A stretch of DNA of 6,950 bases from Gemmatimonadota bacterium (lineage in GTDB: Bacteria > 4572-55 > J002): NCBI GenBank assembly GCA_003697105.1, contig RFFQ01000152.1:1-6950 (forward strand), in the 5' to 3' direction. Positions 76 to 6,950 of the stretch are shown piece after piece. Both the position numbers and the translations under genes were made by a program. Below the pieces are notes generated by a model. The model searched no databases. It saw only the letters and a program-made list of their open reading frames with translations, and was not told the DNA's origin. Positions within the stretch are counted from its first letter, which is position 1. Each line of letters starts with the position of its first letter.

Positions 76-237
76 ATGATTAAAACGGTATTACAGTCGA
101 TTGATGGCATTGGGGCGTACCCAGCGTTCTCACTGGCGCTCTTTTTTGTGGTCTTCAGTGCGATTGTATTGAAAGTCATTTTTATGAATAAGAACGATGT
201 TAAAGAAATCAGTGAATTACCACTGAACGATGATTAA
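76..237 (+). CDS. ccoQ: CcoQ, small subunit of cbb3-type cytochrome c oxidase
   Basis: A 53-residue protein with one membrane helix at about residues 17-36 (FSLALFFVVFSAIVLKVIF), then a short charged tail with KEISELPL. An N-terminal GxxxYP followed by a hydrophobic helix, a basic residue cluster and a SELPL-like tail is the usual look of CcoQ/FixQ proteins, which are about 50-60 residues long. CcoQ is non-catalytic; in studied bacteria it stabilises the CcoNOP complex in the inner membrane. The ATG at 76 has AGGAG at 62-66, spaced 9 bases away and overlapping the TAG of the upstream gene. The gene lies between the upstream oxidase fragment and ccoP, which strongly supports the call even though small helices carry little sequence signal. 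Confidence 0.85.
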   Translation: MIKTVLQSIDGIGAYPAFSLALFFVVFSAIVLKVIFMNKNDVKEISELPLNDD

Positions 238-248
238 TATTCATAATG

Positions 249-254
249 AAGGAG
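249..254 (+). promoter_or_regulatory. Ribosome binding site that decides the ccoP start
   Basis: AAGGAG lies 8 bases before the ATG at 263. An earlier in-frame ATG at 230 overlaps the end of ccoQ but has no comparable purine-rich site, and it would only add 11 residues that do not resemble CcoP N-termini. The start at 263 is therefore preferred. Confidence 0.75.
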
Positions 255-262
255 CCAAACCG

Positions 263-1036
263 ATGGCACATCATCCGGTTGATGAATTATTCGATCATGA
301 TTATGATGGAATTCAGGAGTTTGATAATGACTTGCCACCTTGGTGGTTAAATCTGTTTTACCTGACGATCATTTGGTCTGTCTTGTATTTGCTGTATTAC
401 CATGTGACAGGGATTGGTCTGTTGCAAGCGGAAAAATACAATAAAGAAGTGGACCCGCAATGGACTCGCCGTGCCGACCCCAATTACCAACCCCCCTTTT
501 GGGCAGCGTATTCTTTTCATTCACCCTATGAAGGATCGCGCAAAGATGTTACGCCGCGCATGATGGCGGAAAATCCGGGGTTGTTTGGTGAAGCGGCTCT
601 GATTGAAGAAGAAACGATTGAATACGAACCCCTCTTTGATGCCGCCAACCTTGCCGCCGGACGGGAGTTGTTTGAACGGAATTGCGGGGCAACCTGTCAC
701 GCGAATGACGGGGGCGGAAACATCGGACCCAATTTAACCGATAATTTTTGGATCCACAGCGAAGGCGATATCAATGGGATTATCCGCACAATTGAACGTG
801 GTGTCCCCGCTAAAGGGATGATCGCCTGGAAGCGCATTCTCAAGCCCGAAGAAATTCACCAAATTGGGAGCTACGTTTTAACACTACGCGGTACGACCCC
901 TGCCAATCCCAAACCCCCGCAAGGAGAGGAGTACCCGCTCCCGCCAAGCCTTCGTGAAGATACCGGTACCGGCGACGAAGTGCCTACCGAAGAGAATACG
1001 ACGCCTGCGGAAGCCGAGGAATCCAACCAATCATGA
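263..1036 (+). CDS. ccoP: CcoP, cytochrome c subunit of cbb3 oxidase (single CX3CH haem site)
   Basis: A 257-residue protein. The N-terminal FixP/CcoP domain is clear: DHDYDGIQEFDNDLPPWW, followed by a membrane helix at about residues 28-45. A periplasmic cytochrome c domain covers about residues 125-210. Its haem attachment site reads NCGATCH (Cys141, Cys145, His146), a CX3CH spacing instead of CXXCH, followed by GPNLTDNFW and GMIAWK, whose Met186 is the probable second iron ligand. SYVLTLRGTTPANPKPPQGE closes the domain, and an acidic Glu/Thr/Pro-rich tail follows. Many CcoP proteins are near 300 residues with two c-type haems; here only one site exists. The role is transfer of electrons from soluble or membrane donors to the catalytic subunit. 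The start at 263 was chosen for its AAGGAG; a longer form from 230 is possible. The stop overlaps the ccoG start as ATGA. Confidence 0.93.
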   Translation: MAHHPVDELFDHDYDGIQEFDNDLPPWWLNLFYLTIIWSVLYLLYYHVTGIGLLQAEKYNKEVDPQWTRRADPNYQPPFWAAYSFHSPYEGSRKDVTPRMMAENPGLFGEAALIEEETIEYEPLFDAANLAAGRELFERNCGATCHANDGGGNIGPNLTDNFWIHSEGDINGIIRTIERGVPAKGMIAWKRILKPEEIHQIGSYVLTLRGTTPANPKPPQGEEYPLPPSLREDTGTGDEVPTEENTTPAEAEESNQS

Positions 1037-2460
1037 ACGAAAATGTTTCAAGCGAATCTCCCGTGGTAGAAGAATCCTATCGCGACCGGATCAGTACTGT
1101 TGATGAACAAGGCAAACGGGTGTGGATTTACCCGAAAAAGCCCAAAGGGACGTTTTATAATGCGCGGACGATCTTCAGTATTTTCCAATTAGGGATTTTG
1201 TTCGCGTTGCCGTTTATCAAGGTCGATGGGCATCCCTTTATGCAGTTTGATATTCTAGGGCGGAAGTTCATCTTGTTTGGGCAAGCATTTTGGCCCCAAG
1301 ATTTCCACTTGTTTGCCCTTGCCATTATCACATTTTTTGTCGGGATCATTCTGTTTACGGCAGTGTATGGGCGGGTTTTTTGTGGATGGGGCTGCCCGCA
1401 AACGCTCTTTATGGAGATGCTCTTCCGTAAAATTGAATATTGGATCGAAGGTGATGCCCATCGCCAACGAGCGCTCGCTCGGGCACCATGGACGGGGGAG
1501 AAAATCTTCAAACGATCCATGAAATATGCGATCTTTCTAGGGTTATCGTTCTTGATTGGAAACCTTTTTCTAGCGTACATCATCGGGGTTGACCGGCTAT
1601 TTGAGATTGTCACTCAGCCACCGGCGGCAAATCCGGGTGGCTTCACCTTTGTGCTGATTGTCACGGGGATTACTTTTTTTATCTATGCTTATTTTCGGGA
1701 GCAACTCTGCCTGATTGTTTGCCCCTATGGGCGGTTGCAATCCGTTTTGCTGGATAAAGAATCGATTGTCGTCGCGTACGATTTTAAGCGGGGTGAGCCG
1801 CGAGGTAAGCGCAAAAAAAACCAACCTGATGATCATCTGGGGGATTGTATTGATTGCAAATTATGCGTCCAAGTTTGCCCGACAGGGATCGATATCCGCA
1901 ACGGTACTCAATTAGAATGTATCAACTGTACGGCATGTATTGATGCGTGTAATTCCATCATGACCAAGGTCAATAAGCCTAAAGGCTTGATCCGGTACGC
2001 CTCGTATAATGCGATAGAAGAGTCGCGTAAATCGCACATCACGGGGCGGGGTGTGGCGTACACAGTCGTGTTGGTGGGATTAGCCGTCTTACTCACGTTT
2101 TTACTCACGACGCGCACCGATGTGGAAACCACGGTATTACGGACGCCCGGTGTACTCTACCAACGGGTAGAAGCGGAAGATGCACTTCGTAATCTGTATT
2201 CGGTGAAAGTGGTGAATAAAACGTTTGATGAAATACCCGTCTCTTTCAAATTGGAATCGCATTCCGGGCGGGTTGAACTTATCGGTGTCGATCATCTGGA
2301 TGTGGAATCGCAGGAAGTGGCGGAAGGTGCCCTATTTATTTATATCCCCGAAAATGATGTACAGGGACCGAGCATGAAGATCAAAGTTGGGGTCTATAAT
2401 GATGAAACGGGCGAGCTTTTACAAACGGTCAAAACGGCATTTTTAGGACCTGCAATGTAG
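1033..2460 (+). CDS. ccoG: CcoG, cbb3 oxidase accessory polyferredoxin (FixG/RdxA family)
   Basis: A 475-residue inner-membrane protein. About five membrane segments are visible, near residues 46-61, 92-111, 165-185, 205-221 and 341-359. Family hallmarks include FWPQDFHLF, VFCGWGCPQTLFMEMLFRK (Cys117, Cys121) and CLIVCPYGRLQ (Cys226, Cys230). Two [4Fe-4S] ferredoxin motifs follow: CIDCKLCVQVCP (Cys272, 275, 278, 282) and CINCTACIDAC (Cys296, 299, 302, 306). Residues after about 360 form the Ig-like FixG C-terminal domain. All expected cysteines are present and the length is normal. In studied proteobacteria CcoG reduces Cu(II) to Cu(I) for insertion of CuB into CcoN, and that role is inferred here. 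The ATG overlaps the ccoP stop by four bases, with GAGGA at 1016-1020 rather far upstream, so translational coupling is likely. ccoH follows after 9 bases. Confidence 0.96.
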   Translation: MNENVSSESPVVEESYRDRISTVDEQGKRVWIYPKKPKGTFYNARTIFSIFQLGILFALPFIKVDGHPFMQFDILGRKFILFGQAFWPQDFHLFALAIITFFVGIILFTAVYGRVFCGWGCPQTLFMEMLFRKIEYWIEGDAHRQRALARAPWTGEKIFKRSMKYAIFLGLSFLIGNLFLAYIIGVDRLFEIVTQPPAANPGGFTFVLIVTGITFFIYAYFREQLCLIVCPYGRLQSVLLDKESIVVAYDFKRGEPRGKRKKNQPDDHLGDCIDCKLCVQVCPTGIDIRNGTQLECINCTACIDACNSIMTKVNKPKGLIRYASYNAIEESRKSHITGRGVAYTVVLVGLAVLLTFLLTTRTDVETTVLRTPGVLYQRVEAEDALRNLYSVKVVNKTFDEIPVSFKLESHSGRVELIGVDHLDVESQEVAEGALFIYIPENDVQGPSMKIKVGVYNDETGELLQTVKTAFLGPAM

Positions 2461-2469
2461 GGAAATATC

Positions 2470-2934
2470 ATGAATATCAAAAAATGGTTAGGGCACTGGG
2501 GATTCCGGATGGCGGTACTTTATACCAGTTTTGTGCTCTTTCTGGCCGGTTTTGCCATTTTTTCCATGTTTTTCCCCTTCGATCTGGTCGCTAAGGATTA
2601 TTATGAGCAAGACCTGAAATATCAGCAACAAATTGATCGCATCCAACGGACGCGAGCGCTTCCCGGTGGCTTGAAATGTACTTACAACCCGGAGCGCGAT
2701 GTGATTCTGATTACGTATCCCGCCTATCTGGATCAAGAGCAAATCCGGGGGGAAATTACGCTTTTTCGTCCGGCAAATGCCGCCTATGACCGGACGATTC
2801 CGGTTGACGTGAATTCTGAAGGGACACAACGTATTGATACAACCCACCTGCCCAAAGGACTGTGGCGGGTGAAAATCCTCTGGCAAGCCGGTGAGGATGA
2901 ATATTACAATGAAGAAGTGGTTGTGTTACAATAA
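2470..2934 (+). CDS. ccoH: CcoH, cbb3 oxidase assembly/stability protein (FixH family)
   Basis: A 154-residue protein with one N-terminal membrane helix at about residues 13-34 and a periplasmic beta-rich domain. The FixH signature is visible directly after the helix: FDLVAKDYYEQDLKYQQQID at residues 37-56, followed by a conserved-looking C-terminal stretch with LPKGLWRVKILW. FixH/CcoH proteins are normally about 150-170 residues and are needed for assembly or stability of the cbb3 complex. AGGGA at 2459-2463 lies 6 bases before the ATG and overlaps the ccoG stop. This is the last gene of the oxidase operon in view. The copper-exporting ATPase gene ccoI and ccoS, which often follow ccoGH, are not present: a terminator-like hairpin comes 29 bases after the stop. 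Confidence 0.92.
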   Translation: MNIKKWLGHWGFRMAVLYTSFVLFLAGFAIFSMFFPFDLVAKDYYEQDLKYQQQIDRIQRTRALPGGLKCTYNPERDVILITYPAYLDQEQIRGEITLFRPANAAYDRTIPVDVNSEGTQRIDTTHLPKGLWRVKILWQAGEDEYYNEEVVVLQ

Positions 2935-2996: not shown

Positions 2997-3037
2997 CATA
3001 AGATACTTTTTCTCCGTAAAACAGTTCAGGGTTGCCA

Positions 3038-5413
3038 ATGAAATCTATTCACGTTCTGTTTTCCATCCTGACCGGAATGATTCTGTTGACCACCGCCGCT
3101 GTTTTTCCCCAGCCGAACCTACCTTTTTCGGATGGCGCTACCACTCCTTACATATACGATGCCGAAACCGGTAACGGAACACACCTGCCACTGGTTCGAG
3201 AGGGACTGGACCCGCGCCCACGCTCCGTTGAGACTCTGGTGATTATCATGGTTGAATTTCGGGATGAGTCCTTCGATGCCGGGCATACGCCGGATTATTT
3301 TCGCCAACTATTTTTCGGGCGAAATAGTGGTGATAAGAGCGTTCACCGCTTTTATTTTGAAAACTCGTATGGACGTACCCGTCTGGATGGCGCAGTGTAC
3401 GGTCCTTTTTATCTGGACGTGCCAATGGCAACCTACGGCGCCAATGATAATCTGACTTACCGCCTGATTGGAGACGCCCTGCGGGCGGCAGACCCTACCG
3501 TTGATTTTGAAGCTTACGGTAATGGTCAGGGCAATATTGCTCATCCAATTGTGATTCATGCCGGCATCGGGCAAGAAGAAGACCCCGAAAACACCGATTT
3601 GCTCTGGTCGTTGCGGTGGGGCAACGATCTGAATCAAGGTACGTATGATGGTCAGGATGCCGATTGGGGTATTATCCTTGCCGAATCCTCACCCGTTGGA
3701 GTCGCGGCACATGAGTTAGGGCATGATTTTGGGTTGATCGATCTGTATGATTTTGATACGGGGGATGATACCCGGTGGGATTACAACAACTATCCGGTGG
3801 TATCGTGGTGTATTATGGCAAGTGGCTCGTGGGCAAAACACCGGCAGCCCGGTGATACCCCCACCCATTTTTGTGGCTATAACAAAATGAAGTTGGGCTG
3901 GCTGAATCCGGTGGTTGTCGCCGGTGGGCAGGAGGTGAACATCAATGCCCAGGAAGTCACTTATCACAATGCCCTGTTCAAAATTCCGTTAGCGGTTTAT
4001 GATCTGCCGGTTGGGGAAGGTACCATCCGCGCGGAAGAGTACTTTTTGCTGGAAAACCGGTATCCTCAAGCGGCGGGTATCCAATTTGATCGCTACGGGG
4101 TGGATGGGCAACCACTGGATACGGGTATCATTATCACCCATGTGGATGAACGGCAGATTCACCCCCAACGGCAGGAACTCTGGAACAGCAGTGAATCTCC
4201 AACTCACCCTTCTTTGCCCCATTATGCCCTCTGGATTGAAGACCCCGGTATGGAAGCGATACAGGATCATCGCGTCAATTCCCAACGGAAACTGGATGCG
4301 GCGTATGCCCTTGAAGATGGTCAATTTTTTGTGGATGACGTTTTACCAGCAAACGGTAATTTACTTTTCCCCAACACCCGTACCAATGACGGCGACCCCA
4401 CCGGAGTTTCGATCCGAATTTTAACACCTTCTGCGGAAACAATGGCAGTACGCTTTTTCGGCGGAGATGATCTGCCGCCAGAGCTTACGGTAGCCCTCCT
4501 TCCCAACGCCGCATTTCCAGATCAGATCAGTATCGGAATGGTTGCCAATGAACCGCTTAATCCATTGCCGCTCTTTTCGGCACACGTGCGTGTTAATGAT
4601 GGGGACGTGGTTCCACTGCGTTTAATTGATGACCAACGGGCGTTCGGACATGTTCAGGTTATGGATGGAATGAGTTATTTGCAGGTTTCGGCGTATGATC
4701 TCGCCCGAAATAAAACCACCATTGAGCGGGTGCTGGCTTCCTTTCGGGTTACCCCACATCAGGCGCAGGTACTCTATTCCCCAGACCAACAGCTCCACAT
4801 TGACTTGCCGCCAGATGCTATCTTGAACCCTCAACGCTGGATTGTCACCTCTCTTCCGGAACCGGGTCCACCGTATAATATGGATTCATGGGTGTTACAA
4901 AGTGAGGTTTATCAGGTGATTACAACCGACCCCGTTCTGAAAAAACCGGTACAACTCCGCTTTACGGCGGCGTTGCAACCGGATCATGCTACCATTCTCT
5001 ACCACACGGCGGGTGGCTGGCAACCGCTGGTCACGTGGGGCGATGGTAATCAGTTTACCGCAGAAATCACTGGATGGGGAAGTGGTCTGTTCGCCCTTGG
5101 TGTCTCCTCCGGCAACCATTCCGATGCACCGGCGGCAGTGCGGATGTATCCCAGCGTTCCCAATCCGTTTAATGCTCGCACGGCAATCCGATATACCTTG
5201 CCGCGTTCCTTACAAGTCGATTTTCGGATTTATAACCTGAGGGGGCAAGTGGTGCGAACGCTCGTCACAGGGATTCAACCCGCCGGAGACCACACGTTGG
5301 TATGGGATGGGCGGGATGATCGCGATCTGGCTGTGGAAAGTGGTGTGTATTATGCCAGATTGCGCGTGGTAAATCGATCAGACTACGGGATACCATTAGT
5401 ATTAATGAAATAA
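3038..5413 (+). CDS. Secreted M6-family zinc metalloprotease with C-terminal FlgD-like sorting-type domain
   Basis: A 791-residue protein. Residues 1 to about 23 look like a signal peptide (MKSIHVLFSILTG, hydrophobic core). The M6 (immune inhibitor A-like) catalytic region spans about residues 65-360. It contains VEFRDESF, FYFENSYGR, the zinc site HELGHDFGLIDLYD (His225, Glu226, His229, probable third ligand Asp235) and CIMASGSW, the expected Met-containing turn. Residues of about 478-570 look like an Ig-like domain (VSAYDLARN). Residues of about 571-690 look like a second, ZU5-like beta-sandwich. The last 90 residues are a FlgD-Ig/T9SS type A-like domain (YPSVPNPFNARTAIRYTLP, IYNLRGQVVRTL, WDGRD, SGVYYARL). 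Known M6 enzymes cleave extracellular proteins; the substrate here is unknown. AGG at 3028-3030 supports ATG 3038 over the in-frame TTG at 3032. The gene follows the terminator, so it probably has its own promoter, which I could not identify. Confidence 0.9.
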   Translation: MKSIHVLFSILTGMILLTTAAVFPQPNLPFSDGATTPYIYDAETGNGTHLPLVREGLDPRPRSVETLVIIMVEFRDESFDAGHTPDYFRQLFFGRNSGDKSVHRFYFENSYGRTRLDGAVYGPFYLDVPMATYGANDNLTYRLIGDALRAADPTVDFEAYGNGQGNIAHPIVIHAGIGQEEDPENTDLLWSLRWGNDLNQGTYDGQDADWGIILAESSPVGVAAHELGHDFGLIDLYDFDTGDDTRWDYNNYPVVSWCIMASGSWAKHRQPGDTPTHFCGYNKMKLGWLNPVVVAGGQEVNINAQEVTYHNALFKIPLAVYDLPVGEGTIRAEEYFLLENRYPQAAGIQFDRYGVDGQPLDTGIIITHVDERQIHPQRQELWNSSESPTHPSLPHYALWIEDPGMEAIQDHRVNSQRKLDAAYALEDGQFFVDDVLPANGNLLFPNTRTNDGDPTGVSIRILTPSAETMAVRFFGGDDLPPELTVALLPNAAFPDQISIGMVANEPLNPLPLFSAHVRVNDGDVVPLRLIDDQRAFGHVQVMDGMSYLQVSAYDLARNKTTIERVLASFRVTPHQAQVLYSPDQQLHIDLPPDAILNPQRWIVTSLPEPGPPYNMDSWVLQSEVYQVITTDPVLKKPVQLRFTAALQPDHATILYHTAGGWQPLVTWGDGNQFTAEITGWGSGLFALGVSSGNHSDAPAAVRMYPSVPNPFNARTAIRYTLPRSLQVDFRIYNLRGQVVRTLVTGIQPAGDHTLVWDGRDDRDLAVESGVYYARLRVVNRSDYGIPLVLMK

Positions 5414-5431
5414 CATAGGATGGTGTGGGTG

Positions 5432-6031
5432 ATGAAATCTATCGGATGGATGGTGTTGGTTTGCTTCTGTTGCACGCTCTCTATGGCACAATCATACCGT
5501 AAAGTTCCGGTTGAACCCGGTGACCGATGTGTGATTACCGGTAGCCCATTGACCGTTTATGATTCTGTTCTGATTTACAACGGGCAGCGGGTTCCTTTAC
5601 GGGCAGAGGTCGTCAGCCAATTTCTGAATCAGCCGGATAAGTACTTGGAAAAATTGGAGATGCCACCTCAGCGGGCCGCTCACCGGTCTGTGGCAGAATT
5701 TTCATTGATCTGGCTTTTGTTCTGGATATGGGTTGGCAGCGCGCTTGCCATTGGTATGATTTGTGCGGCGGTTGCTTCCCAAAAGGGACATCCACCGTGG
5801 CTTTGGTTTTGTTTGGGGGTGGTGGGACATGTGGGGTCTCTCTGGTGGATTATCTGGATTCATCCCCACAAGAGGCGAGCTGTTCCGCCGGAATTTGACC
5901 AACCTCCGACACTGGCTGAGATTGTTGAGTGTGTTAAATGTGGTCTTAAAGGGGAGGCGCTTCCCCAGAAATGTGCGGAATGTGGCGCTTCTTGGCGGGC
6001 TAAAATTACCGGTAATGATCCTACGTCGTAG
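5432..6031 (+). CDS. Membrane protein with signal peptide, YHS-like domain and C-terminal four-cysteine ribbon (function unknown)
   Basis: A 199-residue protein not recognised as a named family. Residues 1-19 form a signal peptide-like segment ending LSMA|QS. Residues of about 28-75 (CVITGSPLTVYDSVLIYNG, QFLNQPDKYLEKL) resemble the layout of YHS/metal-binding domains (C-x-x-G-x-P, then Y-x-G, then F-x-x-x-P-x-x-Y), but only one cysteine is kept, so metal binding is doubtful. Two long hydrophobic segments follow at about 90-113 and 122-144. A basic HPHKRR stretch comes next, then CVKCG...KCAECG (Cys167, 170, 181, 184), a zinc-ribbon or rubredoxin-like knuckle pair. The start at 5432 is chosen because AGGA at 5417-5420 lies 11 bases upstream and MKSIGW makes a normal signal peptide. 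An ATG at 5420 would add only MVWV, with its AGG touching the start. The gene follows the protease by 18 bases (6 with the longer start) and is probably co-transcribed. Confidence 0.75.
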   Translation: MKSIGWMVLVCFCCTLSMAQSYRKVPVEPGDRCVITGSPLTVYDSVLIYNGQRVPLRAEVVSQFLNQPDKYLEKLEMPPQRAAHRSVAEFSLIWLLFWIWVGSALAIGMICAAVASQKGHPPWLWFCLGVVGHVGSLWWIIWIHPHKRRAVPPEFDQPPTLAEIVECVKCGLKGEALPQKCAECGASWRAKITGNDPTS

Positions 6032-6060: not shown

Positions 6061-6663
6061 ATGAAAATTTACATAATTTATTGGTTATCTTTAACCCTGA
6101 CACTGAGTCTGACTTCTATTGCGTATGCGGACCCGCCGGATTGGGCAGGCCAGTTCAACGTTTCGGATTACGAATTTAACGCCAGTATGACGGGTATCTT
6201 GCTTATCAATGGGGAAGTTGCCCGGGATTCGCTGAACCAGATCGCGGCGTTTGTTGAAGATGAGGTGCGCGGTGTGGCAACCCCGATTGCTATTGGCGAT
6301 CAATGGCTCTTTTTTTTAACCGTCTATAGCAATGCGGCAGTAGGGGAGATGATCACTTTTCGGGCATATATCGCCGGGCAAGATACCGTTTTACCGGTAG
6401 CAGAAACGATAGAATTCCAGTTGAATGCCATTATCGGGCAACCCAATGCCCCCTTTGAATGGAATGTAACCCGCCTGATTTACGATCTCAACCAGAATCA
6501 ACAGGTGGATGTGGGAGACATCCAATGGCTTTGCCAATTTTATCTCGGATCACAGCTAGGTGACCCGAATTATTTTAGCCAATTCGATTATGACCAAAAT
6601 CATGCAATTGATGAAACGGATTTGGTGTACTTGATGACGATCTGGTGTGGAGGGCAACCCTGA
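6061..6663 (+). CDS. Secreted protein with DPPDW-type beta domain and C-terminal dockerin-like calcium repeats
   Basis: A 200-residue protein. A signal peptide covers residues 1-23 (cleavage likely at AYA|DP). Residues 24 to about 134 form a domain with the landmarks PPDW, MTGILLINGE, IAAFVEDEVRGVA, WLFFLTVYSN and GEMITFRAY. A closely similar domain occurs in the next gene, but I cannot name its family. Residues 142-187 hold two dockerin/EF-hand-like loops: DLNQNQQVDVGD (Asp142, Asn144, Asn146, Asp150, Asp153) and DYDQNHAIDETD (Asp176, Asp178, Asn180, Asp184, Asp187). Dockerin type I modules bind calcium and dock on cohesins in cellulosomes. In FCB-type bacteria similar repeats often end secreted proteins with no known cohesin partner, so scaffold attachment is only a possibility. 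GAGG at 6051-6054 lies 6 bases before the ATG. The protein looks extracellular or cell-surface; no catalytic motif is visible. Confidence 0.85.
   Translation: MKIYIIYWLSLTLTLSLTSIAYADPPDWAGQFNVSDYEFNASMTGILLINGEVARDSLNQIAAFVEDEVRGVATPIAIGDQWLFFLTVYSNAAVGEMITFRAYIAGQDTVLPVAETIEFQLNAIIGQPNAPFEWNVTRLIYDLNQNQQVDVGDIQWLCQFYLGSQLGDPNYFSQFDYDQNHAIDETDLVYLMTIWCGGQP
6484..6621 (+). other. Dockerin-like pair of EF-hand calcium loops (within the 6061 gene)
   Basis: Two 12-residue loops of pattern D-x-[DN]-x-N-x-x-[VI]-D-x-x-D are encoded at 6484-6519 and 6586-6621. They are separated by about 22 residues, the typical spacing of a duplicated type I dockerin module. All positions expected to bind calcium carry Asp or Asn. 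Confidence 0.8.
6649..6654 (+). promoter_or_regulatory. Ribosome binding site for the second DPPDW-domain gene
   Basis: GGAGGG lies within the last codons of the preceding gene, 8 bases before the ATG at 6663. It supports that start and indicates translation coupled to the upstream gene, whose TGA stop shares its A with this ATG. Confidence 0.7.
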
Positions 6664-6950
6664 TGAGCTGTTTTTTCGTTGTTTTGGTGATGTTAATGGC
6701 GATAGTCCCGGCGGGATATGCTGATCCTCCGGATTGGGATTTGGACCCAGCGGCATTCCAGTACACTTGCAACATCACCGGTATATTATATGTGAATAAT
6801 GAGCCGGCTTTCGACCCCTTTAATGAACTCGCCGCTTTCGTGGATGGTGAGATTCGAGGTGTAGCGTCACCGGTACAAGTGGGGAATATGTGGCTTTTCT
6901 TTCTGACCGTTTATTCCAACGAGGTGGTGGGTGAGATGATTCATTTTCAA
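6663..6950 (+). CDS. Second secreted DPPDW-domain protein, tandem paralogue, 3' truncated by window end
   Basis: An open frame of 96 codons runs to the right edge without a stop. Residues 1-20 form a signal peptide-like segment (MSCFFVVLVMLMAIVPAGYA, cleavage likely before DPPDW). The mature part aligns with the preceding protein: from TGIL to the conserved GEMI-x-F, hand alignment gives 36 identical residues of 58, including AAFV, RGVA and WLFFLTVYSN. The ATG at 6663 overlaps the upstream TGA by one base and has GGAGGG at 6649-6654. The n-region lacks Lys/Arg; an in-frame GTG at 6645 would add an Arg, but it has no better binding site, so the ATG is kept. The two genes look like a tandem duplication of a secreted domain. 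Whether this copy also ends in a dockerin-like module lies outside the window. Confidence 0.85.
   Translation, partial: MSCFFVVLVMLMAIVPAGYADPPDWDLDPAAFQYTCNITGILYVNNEPAFDPFNELAAFVDGEIRGVASPVQVGNMWLFFLTVYSNEVVGEMIHFQ

Follow-up and report, generated by a model that had tools for sequence, protein, structure and literature searches.

Can CcoP, the subunit III of a cbb3 oxidase, be loaded with haem at a site in which the two cysteines stand one residue further apart than in CXXCH? Haem-attaching enzymes normally expect the shorter CxxCH spacing. The question is raised by a 6,950-nucleotide stretch of DNA (the window), which is the whole of one contig (C30) of a genome in 199 contigs and carries the genes ccoO(tail)-ccoQ-ccoP-ccoG-ccoH in that order (Table 1). 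The codons at 683-700, TGC GGG GCA ACC TGT CAC, read Cys152-Gly-Ala-Thr-Cys156-His157, with residues numbered in the 268-residue reading from position 230. The resulting motif, CGATCH, is one residue longer than CXXCH and departs from the canonical pattern of a c-type haem site. An initial annotation had already proposed a CX3CH motif here, and these exact codons do lie within the open frame of ccoP. If real and haem-loaded, the site would let one ask, in a natural setting, how tightly cytochrome c synthases are bound to one cysteine spacing, and in a single-haem protein a failure of attachment would disable an oxidase subunit. For now it is known from a single sequence in a single, fragmented assembly.

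The ccoP gene and its product

The protein encoded at this locus is a real CcoP. Its N-terminus carries the FixP_N membrane anchor (PF14715, E-value 1.4e-19, 70 bits against a cut-off of 24.9), and a cytochrome c (CBB3) domain is also recognized (PF13442, E-value 3.8e-9, 37.2 bits against a cut-off of 27). The ccoP equivalog model TIGR00782 matches with an E-value of 1.6e-28, but the score of 99.9 bits does not reach the curated cut-off of 179.95. This model, of 285 positions, describes dihaem proteins, and such a shortfall is expected for a protein with one cytochrome domain only; it tells against the dihaem type of CcoP and not against a monohaem one. CcoPs of this subfamily ordinarily carry a single haem, unlike the structurally characterized proteobacterial ones, which have at least two haem domains. 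In the AlphaFold model the class I cytochrome c fold is preserved, at a pLDDT of about 94-96 before the motif, 85 in the motif block and 89 after it. Among the chains ranked by Foldseek, the best fold match is the CcoP chain 3mk7_C (Z 13.0, 129 residues, rmsd 11.0 over two parts); 8smr_G (Z 11.9, 89 residues, rmsd 1.9) and cytochrome c6 chains are matched as well. The better start of the gene is probably the ATG at 263 (MAHHPVDELF), which has AAGGAG just upstream and would give a protein of 257 residues.

The gene neighborhood is likewise that of a CcoP, with ccoQ upstream and ccoG and ccoH downstream. The ccoQ frame has no Pfam match; small transmembrane ORFs that resemble it in sequence lie directly upstream of ccoP in the related loci L002-L005 and L010. 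The contig is judged to belong to its genome because its tetranucleotide composition correlates with that of the other contigs at 0.931, within the range of same-length pieces of that genome (0.910-0.942), as against 0.56-0.72 for same-length pieces of related genomes; this speaks against a misbinned contig. No second copy of CcoP was found in the genome. A PF00115 search of the genome returned only a caa3-type COX1, on contig C183, and no CcoN; with the contig breaking in ccoO, ccoN and ccoO are apparently missing from the assembly. Downstream of the cco genes, the window encodes an M6-family metallopeptidase with a FlgD-Ig-like C-terminal tail (3032-5413), which is probably secreted, and a protein with a signal peptide, membrane segments, a C-terminal zinc-ribbon-like CxxC...CxxC and no Pfam match (5420-6031). 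It ends with tandem paralogous secreted proteins (6061-6663 and 6645-6950; YADPPDW..., FFLTVYSN...VGEMI), whose frames slightly overlap and the first of which has a weak dockerin-like C-terminus.

Table 1. Features of the cbb3 locus and of two maturation genes of the same genome. Positions refer to the window unless another locus is named.
Feature	Position	Strand	Basis
ccoO 3' end (last 20 codons and stop, cut by contig end)	1..63	+	ORF read; CcoO identity from synteny only
ccoQ, 53 aa, single-TM	76..237	+	Place and sequence similar to small TM ORFs in relatives
ccoP, monohaem subunit III of cbb3 oxidase	230..1036	+	PF14715, PF13442, sub-cut-off TIGR00782, fold match 3mk7_C
CX3CH haem-attachment motif CGATCH	683..700	+	Sequence, alignment; unique by pattern among 386 genomes
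Predicted axial haem ligand Met197	818..820	+	Met invariant in 35 CcoPs
ccoG (FixG/RdxA), accessory ferredoxin-like protein	1033..2460	+	TIGR02745, 1.7e-129, above cut-off
ccoH (FixH)	2470..2934	+	PF05751, 2.8e-17
CcmE, CXXXY type (KCASKY)	L092 1123-1530	minus	Own genome
CcmH	L103 6363-6830	minus	91.4 bits; own genome

Cysteine spacing in relatives and the maturation machinery

When the whole protein was scanned for C(x2-4)CH, nothing beyond CGATCH was found, so that the claim of a single haem site holds. Across an alignment of 35 CcoPs, Cys152, Cys156 and His157 are invariant, as is Met197, the candidate axial ligand in GMIAWK, and the other conserved positions (Gly163, Gly-Pro166-167, Thr170, Asp171 and Gly191) are all kept. 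The surroundings had been described as those of a normal CcoP, and GPNLTD, Met197 in its GMIAWK context, the FixP_N anchor and the cytochrome c fold are indeed present. Since the site matches the CXXCH of every homologue column by column, with one extra column, a chance occurrence of the motif can be dismissed.

Spacing was compared at the motif site in 67 loci from GTDB genomes together with loci from 60 sampled genomes. Every readable relative has CXXCH; the 84 loci give 58 different strings at the motif. The nearest relatives, L002 and L003, are 56% identical in the alignment and have NCASCH; L069 has NCVPCH at about 49% identity; and L070, from the only further genome in the sample that belongs to this class and phylum, has NCASCHAPDGGG, again CXXCH, at about 40% identity. 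A CX3CH conserved in the clade, for which an alignment of CcoP homologues had been suggested as a check, is rejected, as the spacing is absent from all relatives examined. The initial annotation had named an isolated insertion among relatives with CXXCH as one of two outcomes that would speak against it, the other being a three-base assembly error, and the isolated insertion is what the sample contains, though no sampled relative exceeds 56% identity. A degenerate pattern, CX3CH followed by GPN(L), had a single match, in the own genome, among 386 genomes; it also had none in nine genomes of the phylum of G054. The count over 386 genomes is a weak denominator because many of the 386 genomes probably have no cbb3 oxidase and it comes with no positive-control count of CXXCH; the 58 motif strings are the better denominator for the isolation of the spacing. 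The titles and abstracts found on CX3CH or CXXXCH include genome-wide tallies of these motifs and work on the cytochrome MmcA, and a CcoP with this spacing does not appear in them.

Elsewhere in the genome, the c-type cytochromes surveyed through the PF13442 family have CXXCH. The organism thus shows no habit of longer spacings, which weighs against the explanation favored below. As to whether maturation proceeds by System I or II, a point raised in the initial annotation, the genome encodes System I: CcmB, CcmC, CcmE, CcmF and CcmH, the five components searched for, were all found, with CcmB adjoining CcmC and CcmE adjoining CcmF. System II is rejected, as no ResB was found in the genome. A variant of the machinery, System I*, is described as lacking CcmH. 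Its CcmE carries a CXXXY haem-binding motif instead of HXXXY (PMC3601427; PMC9084895). The CcmE found here is of the CXXXY type, but it occurs together with CcmH, so that the set mixes features and does not correspond to the published System I*. In this CcmH, the usual CxxC thiol pair reads APCCW, with vicinal cysteines. A CcsA/HemX-like cytochrome c assembly protein is also encoded (L093 5952-6776), even though there is no ResB.

Proposed origin of the extra codon and probable fate of the haem

From the sequence comparison, insertion of one codon in this lineage alone is plausible and a clade trait is not, because no relative examined has the same spacing; CGATCH looks like a real, isolated variant. 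The simplest route would be the gain of GGG by TGC GCA ACC TGT CAC, the triplet being our inference, by which one G at the site becomes four. The reading frame survives because three bases are added, where single-base slippage would break it, and the codons before and after the site align column by column with the homologues, which rules out frame decay or compensated frameshifts. The intact frame had been claimed correctly. The view that this is a real variant and not decay stands in so far as frame, fold and ligands are intact and the contig fits its genome; as a conserved variant it is unsupported, the relatives all having CXXCH.

The explanation that we favor, at somewhat better than even confidence, combines a private in-frame codon insertion with a CcoP that is still loaded with haem by System I and functional. 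The Ccm machinery would still load haem via Cys152 and Cys156, His157 and Met197 would serve as axial ligands, and CcoP would still pass electrons from a periplasmic donor to CcoO/CcoN, the insertion having made the haem-attachment loop longer in a monohaem CcoP that is ordinary in other respects. Haem is probably attached at the CX3CH of CcoP, by a number of thioether bonds that we infer. In MmcA of Methanosarcina acetivorans, haem was located by mass spectrometry on CXXXCH and CXXXXCH sites (PMC11024163), and the CcmE of that organism is of the CXXXY type (PMC9084895), as is the KCASKY CcmE here. Function of the CX3CH CcoP is plausible because covalent haem at such a site is proven in MmcA with the same type of CcmE. 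The further step, to a fixed and fully functional CX3CH in a terminal-oxidase subunit, with two thioether bonds formed by a bacterial System I that has both CXXXY CcmE and CcmH, is tentative and somewhat short of an even chance. Haem might also be bound by Cys156 alone, as at an XXXCH-like site, with Cys152 free or aberrantly bonded and the oxidase working with a single-thioether haem. His157 is preserved beside Cys156, and according to a review the Ccm system of E. coli misattaches haem at altered cysteine spacing, with one sulfur too many in the bond to cysteine, a persulfide link (PMC3601427); this finding also weighs against the favored explanation. However, Cys152 is retained and MmcA carries haem at a CXXXCH site (PMC11024163), and we regard binding by Cys156 alone as unlikely.

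Doubt about the codon itself comes from the state of the assembly. The assembly is split into 199 contigs and yielded no ccoN, and the contig with the site, 6,950 bases long, stops within ccoO, 683 bases from the site; removal of GGG gives a canonical CATCH that is still in frame, and no relative examined has the longer spacing. An assembly or sequencing artefact, in which the GGG is unreal and the true site is CXXCH (e.g., TGC GCA ACC TGT CAC), would predict TGCGCAACC at the site instead of the GGGG run. On the other hand, three extra in-frame bases are not the usual single-base homopolymer error, there is no other frame damage and composition is normal, which leaves an artefact improbable. 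With a single genome and a nearest relative at 56% identity, fixation in this lineage would look no different from an assembly error. Were the insertion real but a block to haem attachment, the cbb3 oxidase might be in early loss with the caa3-type enzyme on C183 taking over. This second haem-copper oxidase is of the A type, and its presence means that the cell need not depend on the cbb3 oxidase; the failure to find CcoN would fit as well. Yet the CcoP, CcoG and CcoH frames are intact, all other conserved CcoP residues are kept, and ccoN is more probably unassembled than lost because the contig end cuts ccoO. Early loss is, on this evidence, very unlikely.

Comparison with known cytochromes

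The favored reading, a haem-loaded CcoP with a private extra codon, can be set beside three known systems. The first are the monohaem CcoPs of Bacteroidota/KSB1-type cbb3 oxidases (L002, L003, L069, L070), which share the FixP_N anchor, the single cytochrome c domain, GPNLTD and the Met ligand in GMI(A/S/P)W, and differ in having CXXCH where the protein here has CX3CH. The CcoPs of Pseudomonas stutzeri and Rhodobacter (3mk7, 6xkw) resemble it in the anchor and the fold of the cytochrome c domain, but have two cytochrome c domains and haems, with CXXCH, against one domain with CX3CH. The third is MmcA, through which CX3CH with covalent haem is already known elsewhere. MmcA is an unrelated multihaem protein, matured by an archaeal Ccm system without CcmH, and its haem attachment is proven, whereas here CcmH is present and the case is made from sequence. 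What the two have in common is the CXXXCH site and a host with System I whose CcmE is of the CXXXY type.
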